Source: Candidatus Wolfebacteria bacterium RIFOXYD12_FULL_48_21
GTDB lineage: Bacteria > Patescibacteriota > Minisyncoccia > UBA6257 > UBA9933
Direction of reading: 5' to 3'
Assembly: GCA_001793945.1 (NCBI GenBank)
Contig: MGIW01000005.1
Span: 1-54,981 of the forward strand
Length of the DNA: 54,981 nucleotides
The position numbers and the translations under genes were made by a program. Below, in pieces: positions 2,849-53,338 of this stretch (positions are counted from its first letter, which is position 1; every line of letters begins with the position of its first letter). The notes under the pieces were generated by a model, which was given only the letters and a program-made list of their open reading frames with translations, ran no database searches and was not told the DNA's origin.

Positions 2849-4495
2849 ATGAATATTTTAGGGAACTTCAATCTTTTGTCGGTAGGAATTATAGTCGCCT
2901 GTATTGTGATTTTAGGCTGGGTAATCTTTTTTAGCAATAGAAAAAGTATTACCAACAGAACATTTCTTGGCCTCTCAATGGCTGCGGCGCTATGGAGCGT
3001 ATTTAATTATGTATCGTTTCAGTTAACGGATGCGAAATGGATATTGTGGGCACTACGGGCGCAGATGTTCTTTGCAGTTTGGTATGCATACTTTATTTTT
3101 CAGCTTTTTTATGTATTTCCGGAAGATGTTAAGGAATTTACGAGAGAATATAAAATATTTCTATTTCCAGCCTTATTGGTTGTATCAGCCGCAACATTAA
3201 CGGAGTTCGTCTTCGTGGGAGTTGAGGGGGTAAATATAGGCGGAGGGGCATCGGGAGTGGCACTTGATTGGGGGGTGGGACTATTCGGCACATTTATTGG
3301 ATTTTTGCTTATAGTCGGGGTGGCGATGTTTATAAGAAAAACAAGGAGTGCCTCAGAAGAAGAAAGTCAAAAATTCCGCTACATTCTTGCCGGACTCTTT
3401 ACGACATTCTTATTGCACATAGTTTTTAATTTTATATTGCCCGCTCTTTTGGATATGCCACAGTTTGTTCAATATGGCGCCATGTTTGTATTTCCACTCA
3501 TATTCTTTACATTCTATGCGATTATTAAGCACAATCTACTGAATATAAAGGTTGTTGCTACGGAGATTTTCATACTATTGCTTTCGCTGGTGTCTTTTGT
3601 TGAAGTGGTTATTGCAAAAAATACAACGGAAATAGCTTTTAGGACCGTTATATTCTTCGCAATATTGGCAATCGGTATACTTGTTATCCGCAGCGTCCGC
3701 CGCGAAGTCGAGCAAAAAGAAAAACTGCAAAAACTATCAGAAGACCTCGAGGCGGTAAACGAAGAATTAAAGAAGACGGAAAAACTGAAGGCGGAGTTCT
3801 TCTCGTTTGCCGCGCATCAGGTTAAATCGCCTATGGCGGTCATCAAGGGTTATGCCACATTGATCGGTGACGGCACATTGGCGGGTGTACCACAGGACAA
3901 GATCGTGGAGATCGCAAAAAAGATCGGCGCTGCGGCAAGCCGCACGCTTGCCATGGTAAACAACCTGCTCGACATGCGAAAGATCGAGGAGGGAAGAATG
4001 GTCTATTCGTTCGAAGAGCTGAATGTGGTCCCGCCGATCCGCACTATTGTTGCCGATCTGGAAACATTGGCAAAGGACAAAGGTCTTGCGTTGACCTTTG
4101 AGGCATCGCAGGAAGAGATAGTGCTGAACATGGATATTCAGAAGTTCACGCAGGTCATTCAGAACCTTATAGACAATGCGGTCAAATATACCGAAGCCGG
4201 ATGGGTTAAGGTAAGCGTGAGCTTGAATGACGGCAAAGTGCTGTTTGCGGTTTCCGATTCGGGCAGGGGCATTTCAAAAGACTTTGCTGCGAATATGTTT
4301 ACCCAATTCGCGCGTGATCCGGCCTTGGCTCAGGATACCAAAGGCACCGGCCTCGGCCTCTTCATCGCCAAACAGATTGTGGAAGCCCATGGCGGCAAAA
4401 TCTGGGCATCCTCCGAAGGCGAAGGAGCAGGGAGCACCTTCTCGGTGGAAATCCCGCAAGATAATAAGGCGGTTACGGAGAAGATGGGGAGTTGA
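2849..4495 (+). CDS. Membrane sensor histidine kinase (N-terminal multi-TM, HisKA + HATPase_c)
   Basis: FFSFAAHQVKSPMAVIKGYA H-box; NLIDNAVKYT N-box; [29 protein letters not shown]-boxes. Confidence 0.92.
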   Translation: MNILGNFNLLSVGIIVACIVILGWVIFFSNRKSITNRTFLGLSMAAALWSVFNYVSFQLTDAKWILWALRAQMFFAVWYAYFIFQLFYVFPEDVKEFTREYKIFLFPALLVVSAATLTEFVFVGVEGVNIGGGASGVALDWGVGLFGTFIGFLLIVGVAMFIRKTRSASEEESQKFRYILAGLFTTFLLHIVFNFILPALLDMPQFVQYGAMFVFPLIFFTFYAIIKHNLLNIKVVATEIFILLLSLVSFVEVVIAKNTTEIAFRTVIFFAILAIGILVIRSVRREVEQKEKLQKLSEDLEAVNEELKKTEKLKAEFFSFAAHQVKSPMAVIKGYATLIGDGTLAGVPQDKIVEIAKKIGAAASRTLAMVNNLLDMRKIEEGRMVYSFEELNVVPPIRTIVADLETLAKDKGLALTFEASQEEIVLNMDIQKFTQVIQNLIDNAVKYTEAGWVKVSVSLNDGKVLFAVSDSGRGISKDFAANMFTQFARDPALAQDTKGTGLGLFIAKQIVEAHGGKIWASSEGEGAGSTFSVEIPQDNKAVTEKMGS

Positions 4496-4541
4496 GGATC
4501 TTTCATATATGCAGAAGAAGTCTAAATACGATATAAGAATA

Positions 4542-4582
4542 AAGCAAAACAACGCAAAAAATATTTTTGCGTTGTTTTGCTT
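4542..4582 (+). terminator. Hairpin terminator downstream of the histidine kinase
   Basis: AAGCAAAACAACGCAAAAA-ATA-TTTTTGCGTTGTTTTGCTT, 19-bp perfect arms. Confidence 0.75.
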
Positions 4583-4625
4583 GCTAAACGCCATAGGCTA
4601 TGATGATGAGAATAATGATAAGGGG

Positions 4626-5324
4626 ATGTCTCCGTTGAGAAAAAAGATACGAAAGCAACTCTTAATAATAGACTGGAAGGCGAAGTACCCGGAGTGCAAA
4701 GACTTATTAAGTAAGTATCACCCGGGATGGATTTTGTTTGACATGTTAAAGAAGGGATCGATTGCGAAGCAAACAAGGATTCAAAAAATACTTGAGGAAT
4801 GCGGGCGTGATCCATTGATAAAAAAACTGTGGAACCAGTATGGAGCTACGCAGGAAAAAGAGGGGAAAGAAATATTGGCGATTTTTAAAAAAGAAGCCCA
4901 GCTGTTTATGGATTTTGTAGGGTCTGCGCCTAAAAATATCCATACGCTGACAGTAATTGCGAATCCATTAGATGCATACTGGCGCGGATACGGACTTGAG
5001 GTAAAAGGAGTAGGCTATATAGTAGTTGGCCCCGGTAACAAGCAAGAAAAAAGAAATGTGATACGGCACGAATTGATTCACATTCTTGCGCCAAAAATCA
5101 CAATTCCTCAGGGGCTGCTTATATATTCCAAAAATAGTGCATTGGCGAAAATGGGTTACGGCACGAAAAGTATTCTCAATAGGGAATATGTCGTTCGTGC
5201 ATTGCAGATCGCATATGAAACAGAAGTATTGAAAAAAGATTTTGAACAAGCACTACTGGAAGAATCAGAATTTCCCAAAATCAAAGAAGCAGTTGAATTC
5301 GTAAAAGGGAAGATAATCGGATAA
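4626..5324 (+). CDS. Putative HExxH zinc metallopeptidase-like protein
   Basis: RHELIHIL motif; start set after the upstream hairpin, longer ORF starts possible. Confidence 0.5.
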   Translation: MSPLRKKIRKQLLIIDWKAKYPECKDLLSKYHPGWILFDMLKKGSIAKQTRIQKILEECGRDPLIKKLWNQYGATQEKEGKEILAIFKKEAQLFMDFVGSAPKNIHTLTVIANPLDAYWRGYGLEVKGVGYIVVGPGNKQEKRNVIRHELIHILAPKITIPQGLLIYSKNSALAKMGYGTKSILNREYVVRALQIAYETEVLKKDFEQALLEESEFPKIKEAVEFVKGKIIG

Positions 5325-5461: not shown

Positions 5462-6472
5462 ATGGAAAAGACGATACTCATTCTCACTCATTCGCAGGAC
5501 GATTGTGCAAAACTTGTCATTGATCAGCTTTCTTCAAAAGGAGCAGATCTTGTCAGGTTCAATACCAATGAATTCCATAGCAAGGTAAAGGCCGTAATGC
5601 ACCTTAGCGGACGCGGAGATTTTCAGGGAAGATACGAATTTCCTGATAGTGTGCTGCCTTTTAGCCAAGTCGGCGTGGTGTGGAACAGAAGAATTCACGA
5701 ACCTGAACTGGATTATGATTTAGGGAATCCGGAGCTTCAGGCATGGATGGCTGACGAAGCAGAGATGGCTATGAACATCTCTTTTACCATGTTTACATGC
5801 CCCGTGATCAATCCATGGGAAATCAACGAGAGATTGAAGTTCAACAAGATGATTCAAATGCAAAGAGCCGCTTCTCTGGGGTTAGAAGTTCCGCTTTCTT
5901 GCATAACGAATAATCTCTCAGAAATCAAGGAATTTTGGAGAGAGGCAGAGGAAGAAGTTATCTTCAAGAAAATTAGAAAAGGCCTGTTCAGATTCAGTAA
6001 CGGGGAAACTCTGTTATTGCATACCAGTAAGATCCCAAGAGAGATGATGACGGAAGAAAATTTGGCAAGAATGAGATTTAGTCCGATGTTTTTACAGGAG
6101 CATATACCGAAGCGCTTTGATGTACGGTCTGTCGTGGTAGACGAGAAAGTATTTTCAGTGACGATAGACTCGCAGGGAGTGGAAGAAGGAAAGACGGATT
6201 ACAGAACAGCTGCCGTCATGGGAAAGCTCAAAGAGATGCCTCACAAAGAAATAGATCTGGGAGAGGATGTTAATAAAAAGCTCGTAGCTTTCTCAAAAAG
6301 TTTTGAGCTGACATTTAGCGTCATTGACATGGTTATAACCCCGGATGGAAGAATCGTATTCTTAGAGGATAATCCGAATGGACAATGGGCATGGCTCGAG
6401 CATATGACGGGCGCACCTATTTCTGAAGCATTTGCGGATACGCTTATAGAATTTTCCCAGAGATCTTCTTGA
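5462..6472 (+). CDS. ATP-grasp ligase of the graspetide (MvdC/MvdD-like) type
   Basis: VWNRRI, KFNKMIQMQRAASLGLEVP, FKKIRKGLF, HIPKRFDVRSVVVDEKVFSVTIDSQ...TDYR, FLEDNPNGQW; SD aggagg upstream. Confidence 0.85.
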   Translation: MEKTILILTHSQDDCAKLVIDQLSSKGADLVRFNTNEFHSKVKAVMHLSGRGDFQGRYEFPDSVLPFSQVGVVWNRRIHEPELDYDLGNPELQAWMADEAEMAMNISFTMFTCPVINPWEINERLKFNKMIQMQRAASLGLEVPLSCITNNLSEIKEFWREAEEEVIFKKIRKGLFRFSNGETLLLHTSKIPREMMTEENLARMRFSPMFLQEHIPKRFDVRSVVVDEKVFSVTIDSQGVEEGKTDYRTAAVMGKLKEMPHKEIDLGEDVNKKLVAFSKSFELTFSVIDMVITPDGRIVFLEDNPNGQWAWLEHMTGAPISEAFADTLIEFSQRSS

Positions 6473-6533
6473 CGCCAGATCATCCGAGGATTAAACTACT
6501 ATTAGTACGATAAAATAAGAGGAGGTGATAAGT

Positions 6534-6674
6534 ATGGAATTAGTAGAGCAGCAGTCGGAAAGGCCGTTTTTCCTGGATTTCGCATTCAGGCTCCCGGCGG
6601 GAGTTGAAATCGAAACCTCGAAGCAGTCGAAAGACTGCACAAGCTGGGGCGAGGCAAGTTGCGATGATGATTAG
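6534..6674 (+). CDS. Graspetide precursor peptide (46 aa), absent from ORF track
   Basis: MELVEQQSERPFFLDFAFRLPAGVEIETSKQSKDCTSWGEASCDDD; PFFLDF resembles the microviridin leader motif PFFARFL; SD agaggaggtgat; directly follows ATP-grasp. Confidence 0.8.
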   Translation: MELVEQQSERPFFLDFAFRLPAGVEIETSKQSKDCTSWGEASCDDD

Positions 6675-7694: not shown

Positions 7695-7848
7695 AGGCAC
7701 CGGCCTCGGCCTCTTCATCGCCAAACAGATCGTGGAAGCCCATGGCGGCAAAATCTGGGCATCCTCCAAAGGAGAAGGCGCAGGTAGCACCTTCTCGGTG
7801 GAAATCCCTTTGGACAACAAGGCGGTTACGGAAAAGATGGGGAGTTGA
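7695..7848 (+). pseudogene. Histidine-kinase 3'-end remnant (copy B)
   Basis: Near-identical to 4347-4495 up to AAGATGGGGAGTTGA. Confidence 0.95.
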
Positions 7849-7945
7849 GGGGGGTTTGACAAAACTATTACTACAATGGCATACTTTTATTAGTAACTTT
7901 GTAGTGGGCGTCATTTGTTATTAACCTCAGCAAAGGAGTAGCGTC
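7849..7945 (+). promoter_or_regulatory. Duplicated promoter/leader (copy 1)
   Basis: TTTGACAAAACTATTACTACAATGGCATACTTTTATTAG...CAAAGGAGTAGCGTC; nearly identical to 12074-12170. Confidence 0.75.
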
Positions 7946-8494: not shown

Positions 8495-8638
8495 CTCGGC
8501 CTCTTCATCGCCAAACAGATTGTGGAAGCCCATGGCGGCAAAATCTGGGCATCCTCCGAAGGCGAAGGAGCAGGTAGCGCCTTCTCGGTGGAAATCCCTT
8601 TGGACAACAAGGCGGTTACGGAAAAGATGGGGAGTTGA
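8495..8638 (+). pseudogene. Histidine-kinase 3'-end remnant (copy C)
   Basis: CTCGGCCTCTTCATCGCC...AAGATGGGGAGTTGA. Confidence 0.95.
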
Positions 8639-8731
8639 GCGAACCGCAGAGAAATTTGACAAAAATATAGATATATCTGATGATTTAATCAGAAATTTTT
8701 AAAAATCAACAATAGGATAAGGAGAAGGGTC

Positions 8732-10036
8732 ATGAGAGATAAGAGATATTTTGTGTTAGGAGCGGCCTCCTTTCTTGTAAGCGGAGCAACCCGCGGGGCA
8801 ATCTATGATACAGACAAAGGGTCGGTATTTTCACTAAGCGAGGATGGAAAGATCATCGTCCAAAAGCTGGACCAAGGGAAGTCCATATCGGAAATCTGCA
8901 AAGAAGAGGGAGTATCTAAGAAAGAGCTCCAAAACTTTTTGCAAAAAATTGTCGACTTGGGCCTGGGTGAATTCGCTCAAGAATTCCGAGTGCGGGAAAA
9001 GGTGGAAATTCCATCAATACGGGATACTCTTTCCTTCGTGCATTGCGAAATAACCGAGCGATGCAATTTTACCTGCGTGCATTGCTATAACAGTGCATCG
9101 TTGTGCAAAAAGGGGAAAGAGCTGAAAACGGCGGAATGGGTTCGCATATTACAGGAGGCATACGGGAAAGGATGCAGAAGGATGCAGCTCGTAGGGGGAG
9201 AGCCATTTTGCAAGAGAAAAACTCTTTTTGAAGTGGCCGGAGAAGCGCGACGCATGGGGTACGAGGGTGTTGAGATTTTCTCAAACTGTTCATTATTGAC
9301 CGCGAGAGACATCGCCAGCATCAAAGATCTGAAAATATCGATGGCGTCGTCATTCTACAGCAGTAACGAGAAAATACATAACGCAATCACGCAAAAAGAA
9401 GGGAGCTGGCAAAAGGCGATTGAAAATTTCGCGAAGATTGTCGAGCAACAGATCCCGCTTCGCGTAGGGTTGATAATCAGCCGGGCAAATGAGGCAACGG
9501 TCGAAGAGACAAAGGCATTTCTGAAAGAGCAATTCGGCATTGAGCATATCAGAAGTGACTATGTAAGGCCGGCAGGAAGGGGATGTGCGAGCGACCTCAT
9601 CTCAGACTCAATGATCAGTGCCCAGGCAGTTACCTCACCGAGTTTTGCAAAGACAGATCTGTCTACATTTGCAAAAAGAAGGTGTGGACATAACTGTTTC
9701 ATGGACAAGATCTGCATTTCGCCCACGGGAGATGTTCACCCTTGCGTAATGGAGCGGGATGTATCATACGGCAATGTACGGAGGGCATCTCTGGAAGAAA
9801 TCCTTGCATCGCCGACTGCGCTTCAGTATCGCAGGATGAGCAAGGATGTTATCGAGGCATGTAGTGAATGCGAATATCGCTATTGTTGCTTTGACTGCAG
9901 GGTTAAGGCAAGAAACGGTAGTGATAACATAACTGCAAAGCCTTGGTGGTGCATGTATGACCCATTAAAAGGTGAGTGGAAAATGTCTAAGAAAGGAGGT
10001 GATGAGGGGAGTATCGAGGCAAGAGGCGAGTGTTAA
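8732..10036 (+). CDS. Radical SAM/SPASM peptide maturase with PqqD-like N-terminal region
   Basis: CNFTCVHCYN (CxxxCxxC); C-terminal CGHNCFMDKICISPTGDVHPC...CSECEYRYCCFDCR SPASM cysteines; SD aaggagaagg. Confidence 0.9.
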   Translation: MRDKRYFVLGAASFLVSGATRGAIYDTDKGSVFSLSEDGKIIVQKLDQGKSISEICKEEGVSKKELQNFLQKIVDLGLGEFAQEFRVREKVEIPSIRDTLSFVHCEITERCNFTCVHCYNSASLCKKGKELKTAEWVRILQEAYGKGCRRMQLVGGEPFCKRKTLFEVAGEARRMGYEGVEIFSNCSLLTARDIASIKDLKISMASSFYSSNEKIHNAITQKEGSWQKAIENFAKIVEQQIPLRVGLIISRANEATVEETKAFLKEQFGIEHIRSDYVRPAGRGCASDLISDSMISAQAVTSPSFAKTDLSTFAKRRCGHNCFMDKICISPTGDVHPCVMERDVSYGNVRRASLEEILASPTALQYRRMSKDVIEACSECEYRYCCFDCRVKARNGSDNITAKPWWCMYDPLKGEWKMSKKGGDEGSIEARGEC

Positions 10037-10065
10037 GTAAAATTCTAACTGAGAAGGAAAAAGTC

Positions 10066-10206
10066 ATGAAGAACAAGAAGCTGAAGCTCGAGATCAAAGA
10101 GGTGACTCGCGGTGGGCTTGTCGGAGCAAGCCAATGTCCGGTCATGGGGTGCACGCCCAATGATCCAACACAAGGATGCCCCCCTGATCCATGTAATCCG
10201 CGGTAA
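10066..10206 (+). CDS. Cys-rich RiPP precursor (46 aa), absent from ORF track
   Basis: MKNKKLKLEIKEVTRGGLVGASQCPVMGCTPNDPTQGCPPDPCNPR; SD gagaagga; directly after rSAM maturase. Confidence 0.75.
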   Translation: MKNKKLKLEIKEVTRGGLVGASQCPVMGCTPNDPTQGCPPDPCNPR

Positions 10207-10231: not shown

Positions 10232-10257
10232 AAAGGGATCGCTTACGCGATCCCTTT
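10232..10257. terminator. Bidirectional hairpin overlapping the end of the minus-strand gene
   Basis: AAAGGGATCGC-TTAC-GCGATCCCTTT; same hairpin at 11094. Confidence 0.7.
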
Positions 10258-11049
10258 CTTTATGATATATTTTTCCAATTCGAATATGTTCTTTGCCTTT
10301 AATTTCCCCGCAAGATAATCTTGCCAAATGGGAAGAATTTTTTGTACGAGTTCTTTGATATACGCATGTCCGTCTATTGTAAGGTAATCACCTTCGCCAT
10401 TCAATCGGATGCGTAGCTCATTATCAGTCATGAGCTCGATCAATGAATGCATAGTCTTATCAGTCTTTTGCTGCTTCTTGGTAAGAATATGCATCAATTC
10501 ATGGGCTAAATATACGACCGTGTAGTTGGGCCAATCTTCCGAATGGCCCCATCGTAGAGCATTATTTTCGGAATACGCTTGGCCACCACCAGTCTTTGGG
10601 TGGTTGATGAAAACTTTGACAGTCTTAGCCGGGAGAGTAATCCCTGCGACCTTAGTAATGAATTGAAATATTTCAACCTCCTTTGCATTCCACCGTTTCT
10701 TCGTTAAAAGGAGATAATTGCTAGTCTCCTTATGTAATCGCTTAAATTCATCCGACTCCTCGATTTCTTGATAAATGGAGTCTACTTTCTTTAATGCATC
10801 GCTAAGCACATTTTTAAAAGGGATACCATTTAAAGCTGACTGGCGAGATAGATCTTCAAGCGCCCATACTGTATGACTTGCCTTAATATAGGGGTTTACG
10901 AAGTAATAAGCTGGATCGTTTTTATACTTACTCCAAAGCCTTTTTTCTAGTCTTTTCCATGCAGGAAAGGGAATTCGTTGATAGGCATTATAATTTTTTA
11001 TTGTGGCAGAAATGAGTTGAGTTTTGTCGACAATAAATTGAAGTTTCAT
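10243..11049 (-). CDS. HExxH metallopeptidase-like protein, paralog 1
   Basis: VVYLAHELMHILTKKQQ; C-terminus KAKNIFELEKYIIKKGIA shared with paralog 2. Confidence 0.6.
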   Translation of the reverse strand: MKLQFIVDKTQLISATIKNYNAYQRIPFPAWKRLEKRLWSKYKNDPAYYFVNPYIKASHTVWALEDLSRQSALNGIPFKNVLSDALKKVDSIYQEIEESDEFKRLHKETSNYLLLTKKRWNAKEVEIFQFITKVAGITLPAKTVKVFINHPKTGGGQAYSENNALRWGHSEDWPNYTVVYLAHELMHILTKKQQKTDKTMHSLIELMTDNELRIRLNGEGDYLTIDGHAYIKELVQKILPIWQDYLAGKLKAKNIFELEKYIIKKGIA

Positions 11050-11093: not shown

Positions 11094-11119
11094 AAAGGGA
11101 TCGCTTACGCGATCCCTTT
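11094..11119. terminator. Hairpin terminator, second copy
   Basis: AAAGGGATCGC-TTAC-GCGATCCCTTT. Confidence 0.7.
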
Positions 11120-11926
11120 CTTTATAATATACTTTTCCAATTCAAATATGTTCTTTGCCTTTAGTTTTCCCGCAAGATAGTTTTGCCAAATCGGGAGAAT
11201 TTTTTGTTCAAGCTCTTGCAGATCTTTATGTCCGACTAATTGGCCGTTTTCTGTAAAATATTCTCCCTTGCCGTTAAGCCGGATACGCAGCTCATTGTCG
11301 GTCATAAGTTCGATGAGTGCATGCATAACGGCGTAATCTTTTTGCGTATGCCATGTAAGAATATGCATTAATTCATGACAAAGATAAACAGTATGATAAT
11401 TTTTCCAATCTTCCTCATGACCCCAAAGAATTGCATTATGGGTGATAAGCGCCCTTCCGTTGGCAAGCTTCGGATGAGTAATAAAGACTGTAATGGTTTT
11501 GTTAGGAAGAGTGATGCCGGTAACTTCTTGAATAAATGACAGGGTGAATTTTTTGTTCAGATCCCATTGCTTGCTTACTTGTAGGAGGTGTTGTTCGGTC
11601 TCTTTGCGCAGCTGCTTGAATTCTTTTGACCGTCGGATGTCATCGTAGATTCTTTCCATGTCAGAAACAATCTTGCAAAAAGTAGAGTTAAAAGACTTAC
11701 CGGGGAAGGCGGATGCAATAAGTAGCTCCTCAGCTGCCCAAGAGATATGCTCATTATTCGAGAAATTTAGGAAGTAATAGGCGGGGGTATCTCGATATTT
11801 TTTATGAATCCTATCTACAAGTGGAGTCCATAGTAAAAAAAGATTGAAGTTAGCGGGTTTCGAATGGTATCGTTTACTTGCGAAATGGATAAGATATCTA
11901 TCGTCAATCTTGAACTGCAGTTTCAT
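11105..11926 (-). CDS. HExxH metallopeptidase-like protein, paralog 2
   Basis: TVYLCHELMHILTWHTQ; tandem paralog of 10243-11049. Confidence 0.6.
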   Translation of the reverse strand: MKLQFKIDDRYLIHFASKRYHSKPANFNLFLLWTPLVDRIHKKYRDTPAYYFLNFSNNEHISWAAEELLIASAFPGKSFNSTFCKIVSDMERIYDDIRRSKEFKQLRKETEQHLLQVSKQWDLNKKFTLSFIQEVTGITLPNKTITVFITHPKLANGRALITHNAILWGHEEDWKNYHTVYLCHELMHILTWHTQKDYAVMHALIELMTDNELRIRLNGKGEYFTENGQLVGHKDLQELEQKILPIWQNYLAGKLKAKNIFELEKYIIKKGIA

Positions 11927-12008
11927 AAAGCAAGTATATCACTATTATTATGTGTAAGGAATAATAATATATTTAAAACTTATCAATCTTTCCCCCTACC
12001 CATTTAAA

Positions 12009-12073
12009 GCAGCACCTTCTCGGTGGAGATTCCTTTGGACAATAAAGCGGTTACGGAGAAGATGGGGAGTTGA
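12009..12073 (+). pseudogene. Histidine-kinase 3'-end remnant (copy D)
   Basis: AGCAGCACCTTCTCGGTGGAGATTCC...AAGATGGGGAGTTGA. Confidence 0.92.
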
Positions 12074-12170
12074 GGTGGGTTTGACAAAACTATTACTACA
12101 ATGGCATACTTTTATTAGTAACTTTGTAGTGGGCGTCACTTGTTATTAACCTCAACAAAGGAGTAGCGTC
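12074..12170 (+). promoter_or_regulatory. Duplicated promoter/leader (copy 2)
   Basis: Nearly identical to 7849-7945 with the same stop-to-ATG distance. Confidence 0.75.
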
Positions 12171-12349: not shown

Positions 12350-13594
12350 ATGAAAATATACAAAGAATCAAAATTGGACAATGGGATGGCAATCCTTACG
12401 AGCGAGGATTCGAACGCTGATGTTGTTACGATTTCAGTATGGCTCCGGGCTGGTTCGCGATATGAGCAAAAGGAAGAACGCGGTTACGCACATATATTGG
12501 AGCACATGCTTTTAAAGGGGACGAAGAAACATCGGTCCATTTTTGATTTAAATGTAATTATGGATCGCGCAGGAGCGATGTCGAATGCGGCGACGAATAT
12601 GGAAATGGTGCGCGTGCACATCGAAGTTATAAAAGATCGACTCGAAGACATGTTTGAACTTGTTGCGGATATTGTGCGAAATCCGTTGATAGATGAGGGG
12701 GTTTTAGAAAATGAAAAGAAGGTTATTATACAGGAATATGATCGTTCATATGATAATCCGGCAAGCAGGCTGTGGATCGAATCGAGCAAGCGTATATTTG
12801 AGGGACACCCATTGTCTCAGGATGCGCTTGGGGATAAGGAAAGTATTCGTGCGGCAACGGCAGACCGATTAAAGAAATATCACAAACGCATATTCATACC
12901 GCAACGCATGGCGGTAGTTGTTACTGGCGGCGCAAGCCACGAAAAAATAGCCGAACTGGCGAGAATCCATTTTGGCGATATGGCGGCACACACCGGGGTA
13001 GAAGTGGATAATTTTAGTAATCCGATACCGCGGCGCGGGTTTGCATTCGAAAAGGTGTCTACGACGCAGACGCAGTTAAATTTTAACTTTTTAAGCGCTG
13101 TTACGAACGCAAGAGAGTCAGCGGCAATGGATATTTACGCAAATTTTCTTGGCTATAAGCACACCTCGTTGTTATATCAGATCCTTCGGCATGAACTTGG
13201 ATTGGTATATAATGTAGGGGTTTCCCATGCGCAATATTCCGATGCAGGGTTGTTTTACATTGCAACATCTACCACAAATCCGCAAGATGCGATTCCAGTG
13301 ATTATCGATCGTGTTATTAATGCCAAAAAATATTTTACAGAAGAGCTATTCAATGCTTACAAAGAACAGCTGATAAATATCGTAACAAGAAAAACAAGTG
13401 CTTCTTCGGATGGGATTGGATATATAGGGGATTCGTGGTTGCATTTCGGAAAGCTTATTGCGCCGGATGAATGGAAAAATATTATCAGAGGGATAGCGTA
13501 CGACGAAATTATCGAAATGATAGAGCGACTGGTCACAAAAGACAACCTATTTGTTATGGCCGTAGGAGAAAAGGAATTTCAAATCGATTTTTGA
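12350..13594 (+). CDS. M16-family (insulinase/processing-peptidase-like) zinc protease
   Basis: HILEHMLLKGTKKH (HxxEH) with downstream glutamate region; M16 N- and C-domain layout. Confidence 0.9.
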   Translation: MKIYKESKLDNGMAILTSEDSNADVVTISVWLRAGSRYEQKEERGYAHILEHMLLKGTKKHRSIFDLNVIMDRAGAMSNAATNMEMVRVHIEVIKDRLEDMFELVADIVRNPLIDEGVLENEKKVIIQEYDRSYDNPASRLWIESSKRIFEGHPLSQDALGDKESIRAATADRLKKYHKRIFIPQRMAVVVTGGASHEKIAELARIHFGDMAAHTGVEVDNFSNPIPRRGFAFEKVSTTQTQLNFNFLSAVTNARESAAMDIYANFLGYKHTSLLYQILRHELGLVYNVGVSHAQYSDAGLFYIATSTTNPQDAIPVIIDRVINAKKYFTEELFNAYKEQLINIVTRKTSASSDGIGYIGDSWLHFGKLIAPDEWKNIIRGIAYDEIIEMIERLVTKDNLFVMAVGEKEFQIDF

Positions 13595-13601
13595 TTTCCA
13601 A

Positions 13602-13665
13602 CAGTACCTTCTCGGTGGAGATTTCGCAGGATAACAAGGCGGTTACGGAGAAGATGGGGAGTTGA
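13602..13665 (+). pseudogene. Histidine-kinase 3'-end remnant (copy E)
   Basis: AGTACCTTCTCGGTGGAGATTTCGCAGGATAACAAGGCGGTTACGGAGAAGATGGGGAGTTGA. Confidence 0.92.
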
Positions 13666-13734
13666 TTTGGGATATGCAGATCTTTGGAAAATAGAAGAGG
13701 AAGATTTTGGGATTGGTATGTTATACTTATGTAT

Positions 13735-14446: not shown

Positions 14447-14534
14447 ATCCTCCGAAGGCGAAGGAGCAGGAAGCACCTTCTCGGTGGAGATTTCGTAGAA
14501 CAACAAAGCGGCCACGGAGAAGATGGGGAGTTGA
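14447..14534 (+). pseudogene. Histidine-kinase 3'-end remnant (copy F), in-frame TAG
   Basis: ATCCTCCGAAGGCGAAGGAGCAGGAAGCACC...GATTTCGTAG...AAGATGGGGAGTTGA. Confidence 0.92.
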
Positions 14535-14583
14535 GGGGGGGGAAAAAGAGTTTCGTCCGCGATTGTGGTATAATAACTGAATT

Positions 14584-52201: not shown

Positions 52202-52218
52202 GGTTGTAGTTGGTTATT

Positions 52219-53338
<1,120 letters not shown>

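Follow-up and report, generated by a model that had tools for sequence, protein, structure and literature searches.

The window, meaning the whole 54,981-nt stretch that was analysed, makes up the opening 55 kb of contig 5 in the 0.88-Mb, six-contig genome of an uncultured Candidatus Wolfebacteria bacterium. An earlier note on this DNA had proposed that a radical SAM/SPASM gene is directly followed by a small four-Cys ORF, and both ORFs lie at the coordinates given there. The enzyme ORF (8732-10036) is separated by 29 nt from a 46-aa ORF (10066-10206) that carries four Cys in its C-terminal half. Downstream of the peptide ORF lie a strong terminator and then two convergent genes for HExxH metallopeptidase-like proteins. 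All four genes are open in the window, and ribosome-binding sites precede those of the enzyme and the peptide. The closest named relative in our searches was Candidatus Wolfebacteria RIFOXYB1_FULL_54_12, with an enzyme identity of 93%. The gene pair and its immediate surroundings comprise the following features:

8656..8684, plus strand: weak sigma-70-like promoter candidate, TTGACA-17-GATGAT, 10/12 in a consensus scan for which chance expects equally many sites
8732..10036, plus strand: radical SAM/SPASM peptide maturase, 434 aa, assigned from PF04055 and PF13186 matches above cut-offs, a structural model and homologues
8732..8977, plus strand: N-terminal PqqD-like recognition element, residues 1-82, assigned by predicted fold, with the Pfam PqqD match below cut-off
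9062..9085, plus strand: CX3CX2C radical SAM cluster motif, residues 111-118, with C111, C115 and C118 invariant in 43 homologues
9695..9952, plus strand: SPASM region with seven Cys (C322, C338, C377, C380, C386, C389 and C407), compared in 43 sequences
10066..10206, plus strand: precursor peptide, 46 aa, MKNKKLKLEIKEVTRGGLVGASQCPVMGCTPNDPTQGCPPDPCNPR, with ATG at 10066 and stop at 10204-10206, its position and pattern conserved in homologous loci
10093..10107, plus strand: leader motif IKEVT (family consensus hhx[LV]T), a motif found in many of the precursors
10135..10203, plus strand: presumed core CPVMGCTPNDPTQGCPPDPCNPR, with three of four Cys in Cys-x-Pro
10232..10257, no strand assigned: intrinsic terminator between the peptide gene and the convergent HExxH gene, with an 11-bp stem

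The enzyme belongs to the radical SAM superfamily, its CX3CX2C motif lying within a radical SAM domain that matches PF04055 at 66.6 bits (cut-off 29.5). The SPASM family PF13186 was matched at 42.5 (cut-off 21.5), and this match together with the seven conserved Cys identifies a SPASM-domain peptide maturase. Six of these Cys are invariant and C407 is present in at least 90% of the 43 sequences; they are expected to hold auxiliary Fe-S clusters, probably two in number. The earlier note had described a PqqD-like N-terminus and a Cys-rich SPASM tail. The tail was borne out above the Pfam cut-off, and the PqqD match was sub-threshold (17.7 against a cut-off of 23.4), with a predicted fold that fits. 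An AlphaFold2 model built from 43 homologues (mean pLDDT 92) places strands at residues 6-9, 13-17, 22-26 and 31-35, then helices at 37-47, 52-59 and 63-75. Residues 1-82 are thus predicted to follow the strand and helix order of a RiPP recognition element, with the barrel and the SPASM tail after it. The nearest solved structures were SkfB and CteB, which gave the best Foldseek and profile matches, and then SuiB, anSMEcpe, TigE and PqqE; EpeE was also among the fold neighbours. A role in anti-phage defence was rejected, the radical SAM core showing only the weak viperin-type similarity of any such enzyme.

The ATG at 10066 was taken as the start of the peptide, with AAGGA about 9 nt ahead of it. 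A longer GTG start at 10030 (58 aa) was set aside, as the ATG has the better ribosome-binding site and gives the same leader start as in the congener G003. Only C29, C38 and C43 of the four Cys stand in Cys-x-Pro, the first Cys reading CPV. The window peptide and that of G003 have almost the same leader and different cores (CPVMGCTPNDPTQGCPPDPCNPR versus CGPQTCTPADPDQCQPTHGW). The G003 precursor (minus strand, about 1322-1465 of locus L002, leader start at G003:C3:157262-157291) contains an in-frame TAG between leader and core, for which decay, an assembly error and readthrough are alternative explanations. The radical SAM and HExxH genes of G003 are intact.

Homologues were gathered using the enzyme sequence alone, and the peptide finding is therefore not circular. 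They came from 6 of 101 related genomes, from 79 loci at one genome per species, from 5 of 383 genomes of the class and from 11 of 380 genomes of the phylum. The loci sampled at one genome per species were only partly full-length, and the tested set consisted of 46 distinct full-length loci. We scored a locus as positive when a small ORF on the strand of the enzyme gene, containing two or more Cys-x-Pro units, lay no more than 500 nt from that gene. Such an ORF was present in 36 of the 46 enzyme loci compared to 2 of 28 control loci built around other radical SAM genes, and one of these two control positives, L068, resembles a true signal-peptide-bearing relative. No antisense Cys-x-Pro small ORFs were found near the enzyme gene. 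Up to 500 nt from the enzyme gene, Cys-x-Pro small ORFs had a density of 0.92 per kb, compared to 0.017 per kb farther out in the same loci, so that the pairing exceeds chance. Ten of the 46 loci were missed by the strict rule, three of them with a recognisable peptide: G003 (stop codon), L003 (a single Cys-x-Pro) and L023 (885 nt away). The Cys-x-Pro rule had been framed on the first loci, and the eight loci new in the phylum sample served as an independent test, in which six had the peptide. The pair recurs across many bacterial phyla. The earlier note would have been contradicted by a precursor that is not conserved beside orthologous enzyme genes, and both samples show the opposite. The literal core that it had put forward, CPxxGCTPxDPTxGCPPDPCxP, is not the conserved feature; the repeated Cys-x-Pro unit is conserved instead.

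In 49 precursors, Pro occupied position +2 of 254 out of 291 Cys, a figure inflated by the picking of most peptides for at least two Cys-x-Pro units; the six independent peptides gave 39 of 43. Shuffling of the same peptides over 2000 rounds yielded a mean of 44 such Cys (sd 5.8, maximum 62). The residue at +1 is free, leaving Pro at +2 as the sole near-invariant neighbour; Asp at +3 is enriched (58/290) and not general. A loose hhx[LV]T pattern was found in 36 of the 49 leaders, usually 5-17 residues before the first Cys-x-Pro, as IELVT, IKEVT or ILEVT in Patescibacteria and as FECLT, YECLT or FKCLT in Bacillota and relatives, and this motif may be the recognition sequence. It was not convincing in the upstream-type precursors of L005, L006, L044, L049 and L088, or in the signal-peptide type of L017 and L045. 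In most Patescibacteria the precursor gene comes after the enzyme gene. The order is reversed in Bacillota-type loci and in the branch of L005, L006, L044, L049 and L088, a clade in the tree. In Planctomycetota and Acidobacteria the N-terminus of the precursor is signal-peptide-like and takes the place of the hhx[LV]T leader. In L045, L017 and L068, loci of Planctomycetota, Acidobacteria and Deltaproteobacteria, Cys-x-Pro peptides start with a twin-arginine-like or other signal sequence.

A small precursor gene beside the enzyme, a conserved leader and a variable core are the marks of a RiPP, and on the available tests the system qualifies as a radical SAM/SPASM RiPP. None of the eight family peptides scanned had a match among the Pfam and NCBIfam models. 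The proposal of the earlier note, a radical-SAM RiPP with a core of no recognised class, therefore agrees with a precursor type that is conserved across phyla and has no such match in the precursors scanned. Neither the HExxH partner genes nor the RiPP island that surrounds the pair figured in that note.

Comparison with known systems placed the enzyme near, and outside, the named families; every score on a known NCBIfam radical SAM maturase family was far below cut-off. The sporulation killing factor sactisynthase SkfB (6EFN) is the best PDB fold and profile match and shares the PqqD-like N-terminus, the radical SAM domain and the SPASM-type tail. The window enzyme nevertheless scores 61.7 on its model TIGR04403 against a cut-off of 300, and the AlbA and StsB models gave 44.5 against 850 and 93.4 against 625. 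To our knowledge, SkfA has no Cys-x-Pro repeat. CteB and the other SCIFF ranthipeptide maturases (5WGG) resemble the enzyme over the full-length fold, with recognition domain and SPASM, and have a Cys-rich substrate. The SCIFF substrate pattern and leader differ from those of the Cys-x-Pro precursors, and the SCIFF model was not among the best 25 NCBIfam matches of the enzyme. PapB, which makes CX3D/E cross-links, offers a further parallel in its repeated short Cys motifs, with some Asp/Glu at +3 in Bacillota-type precursors (PMC9413430). In contrast, the Blautia homologue scores 65.9 on the PapB family (cut-off 340), and the constant residue of the Cys-x-Pro precursors is Pro at +2, not Asp at +4. 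The CPR graspetides are RiPPs from the same bacterial group, and the window has an MvdC/MvdD-like ATP-grasp gene nearby; they use another enzyme class, and radical SAM/Cys-x-Pro cassettes are not described in the consulted passages of PMC8939145. The system appears to work like those of sactipeptides and ranthipeptides, and we file it under neither. Both classes are defined by their thioether, which joins Cys S to C-alpha in sactipeptides and to C-beta or C-gamma in ranthipeptides, and the scores for the named subfamilies are below cut-off.

We then considered the proteins that may process the peptide. The candidates in the window are:

10243..11049, minus strand: HExxH metallopeptidase-like protein, 268 aa, with HELMH; family A3 in Patescibacteria loci; no Pfam match
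11105..11926, minus strand: second HExxH metallopeptidase-like protein, 273 aa; tandem paralogue, 54% identical; model pLDDT 92
12350..13594, plus strand: M16 zinc peptidase (PF00675, PF05193), a member of the same genomic island

Of 23 Patescibacteria loci, 21 have a homologue of the HExxH protein, or a member of a second HExxH family (ATIVHEFGHIYW), next to the enzyme gene. In L004 the HExxH gene is present, its frame broken by a TGA at the position of a conserved Trp; the genome concerned seems to use TGA as a sense codon. No HExxH gene was found in 24 loci of other phyla, save one chance-like match 2.1 kb away, and because of this absence outside Patescibacteria it is not the universal protease. 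Neither window HExxH protein had a Pfam family at E 0.01, and searches with three relatives returned nothing meaningful. The model of the second HExxH protein (pLDDT 92) weakly resembles zinc peptidases of the gluzincin-type M1 and M4 families (best Z 8.1, Foldseek E 0.34); nearly all its top structural rows are zinc peptidases, with Z at most 8.1, and the lanthipeptide leader peptidase EryP is among the weak matches. Leader removal in RiPPs is carried out by metalloproteases of several families, including M1, M16 and M61 (PMC10885120). The HExxH protein may thus be a processing protease, and the island M16 peptidase is a possible second one. In L119 (30-2766), the gene directly ahead of a homologous radical SAM gene is M16-peptidase-like, echoing the M16 gene of the window.

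The gene pair is part of a genomic island. In the congeners G001 and G002, the histidine kinase gene is directly followed by the L25 ribosomal protein gene, representing the empty site. In the window, the kinase (2849-4495) and L25 genes are 12 kb apart with gene modules in between, each ending in a 63-156-bp copy of the kinase gene 3' end. Further features of the island are:

4342-4501, 7695-7850, 8495-8640, 12002-12079, 13594-13671 and 14447-14540: kinase 3' end and five further copies, between modules
about 4515-5324: HELIH protein beside the ATP-grasp gene
5462-6472: MvdC/MvdD-like ATP-grasp gene
6531-6674: candidate graspetide precursor ...RPFFLDFAFRLPAGVEIETSKQSKDCTSWGEASCDDD, which fits the Phhx(1,2)h leader motif of PMC8939145
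14584..16389, plus strand: ABC exporter (PF00005/PF00664), common to the sister genome G003 by synteny

This arrangement looks like repeated insertion of modules at the end of a gene. The island showed no recombinase gene; one tyrosine recombinase lies elsewhere in the genome (G000). In G003 the island is shorter, with the ATP-grasp and ABC genes inside it and the radical SAM cassette elsewhere, between response-regulator and ligase-like genes; two genomes of the same genus therefore carry the cassette at different sites. A grasp-with-spasm assignment through the nearby ATP-grasp gene was rejected (TIGR04193 95.1 versus 175), the ATP-grasp gene being in a separate module with its own candidate precursor. 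The stem-loop of the 10232-10257 terminator recurs in identical form at 11094-11119. It forms part of an 86%-identical 3' end of the tandem HExxH genes (10232-10376 and 11094-11238), despite a protein identity of 54%, which is another hint of exchange at gene ends.

The gene pairing, motif statistics and domain content observed here point to a radical-SAM RiPP cassette whose Cys-x-Pro repeats are probably thioether-cross-linked and whose product is probably freed by a metallopeptidase. We place the probability of this reading at roughly two in three, and we infer the following course of leader binding, chemistry, cleavage and export. The N-terminal PqqD-like domain would bind the leader in the IKEVT region, and the radical SAM centre would abstract hydrogen from a carbon of residues within or next to each Cys-x-Pro unit. 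A bond between the Cys sulfur and this carbon would then close several small thioether rings, pre-organised by the Pro turn. The adjacent HExxH metallopeptidase, with or without the island M16 peptidase, would remove the leader, and the island ABC transporter may act as the peptide exporter for the product.

That the small ORF is spurious and the enzyme acts on another molecule is hardly credible: the ORF is short and has no database match, but the positional conservation and the motif statistics strongly disfavour this explanation. A weightier objection concerns the bond itself. The same RiPP pair may make no thioethers, the enzyme altering another position, for instance Pro, or a C-C, C-O or epimerised centre, while the Cys form disulfides or bind metal through the Cys-x-Pro scaffold. 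The Pro at +2 is almost as constant as the Cys, no one residue type could serve as a general acceptor, and the fold neighbours SuiB, TigE, PqqE and EpeE make no thioethers. For sactipeptides a neutral ketoimine route has been discussed (PMC8326336), and a Pro acceptor would lack the amide N-H for it. However, the best fold and profile matches are thioether synthases, and several closely spaced Cys per peptide are typical of thioether RiPPs, so that we hold this alternative to be somewhat unlikely.

It could further be argued that the pair is real and decaying in the genus, with the precursor or the system no longer produced. The stop codon in the G003 precursor would fit, as would the absence of the system from two of four congeners sampled and the one Cys of the window peptide outside the Cys-x-Pro pattern. 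We judge this very improbable, given that none of the four genes is broken in the window, that the enzyme and peptide ORFs have ribosome-binding sites ahead of them and a terminator is present, and that the enzyme is 93% identical to that of G003 and has no stop. We retain the thioether-cross-linked RiPP cassette as the preferred reading. Its most far-reaching form would be a phylum-spanning RiPP class in which every Cys is linked to the Pro two residues on, or to the residue after that Pro. The peptides would carry tiny Cys-x-Pro thioether rings in chains, an HExxH protease specific to Patescibacteria would mature them, and the secreted product would act in episymbiont-host contact. This is a speculation that we consider distinctly unlikely as a whole.

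A search of open-licence papers for radical-SAM RiPPs in Patescibacteria, Parcubacteria or Wolfebacteria, or for the Cys-x-Pro motif, returned nothing relevant. With Pfam, NCBIfam and the open-licence papers searched covering neither the scanned precursors nor the HExxH partner, this is probably an undescribed family of enzyme-modified peptides. The Cys-x-Pro precursor motif and the enzyme clade are missing from genome-mining models and occur in many phyla, including genomes below 1 Mb; in such small-genome bacteria, graspetides are the only RiPPs that we found described (PMC8939145). The motif allows a possibly new cross-link to be tested at once, and the novelty would be greater if a Cys-Pro linkage proved new. 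The lineage-specific HExxH metallopeptidase may represent a new leader-peptidase family. Should the Cys-x-Pro peptides be produced and secreted, they would be candidates for action on hosts or rivals.

Two other observations were made along the way. The Patescibacteria MAG behind locus L029 (380-4100, 6474-7280 and 7498-9928) appears to read TGA as sense: a TGA stands at a conserved Trp of its HExxH protein, and a 1,200-codon frame is open only under this reading. In the same locus a second radical SAM gene adjoins a Cys-rich CxSDC-type peptide and another HExxH-type protein. In the window, a reverse transcriptase gene (52210-53338) changes frame at a perfect (GA)n repeat of 71 bp (52772-52842) and is thereby split in two. 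Because RVT_1 positions 8-100 and 108-204 flank this repeat in the two frames, the split suggests a slippage-switched, phase-variable gene.
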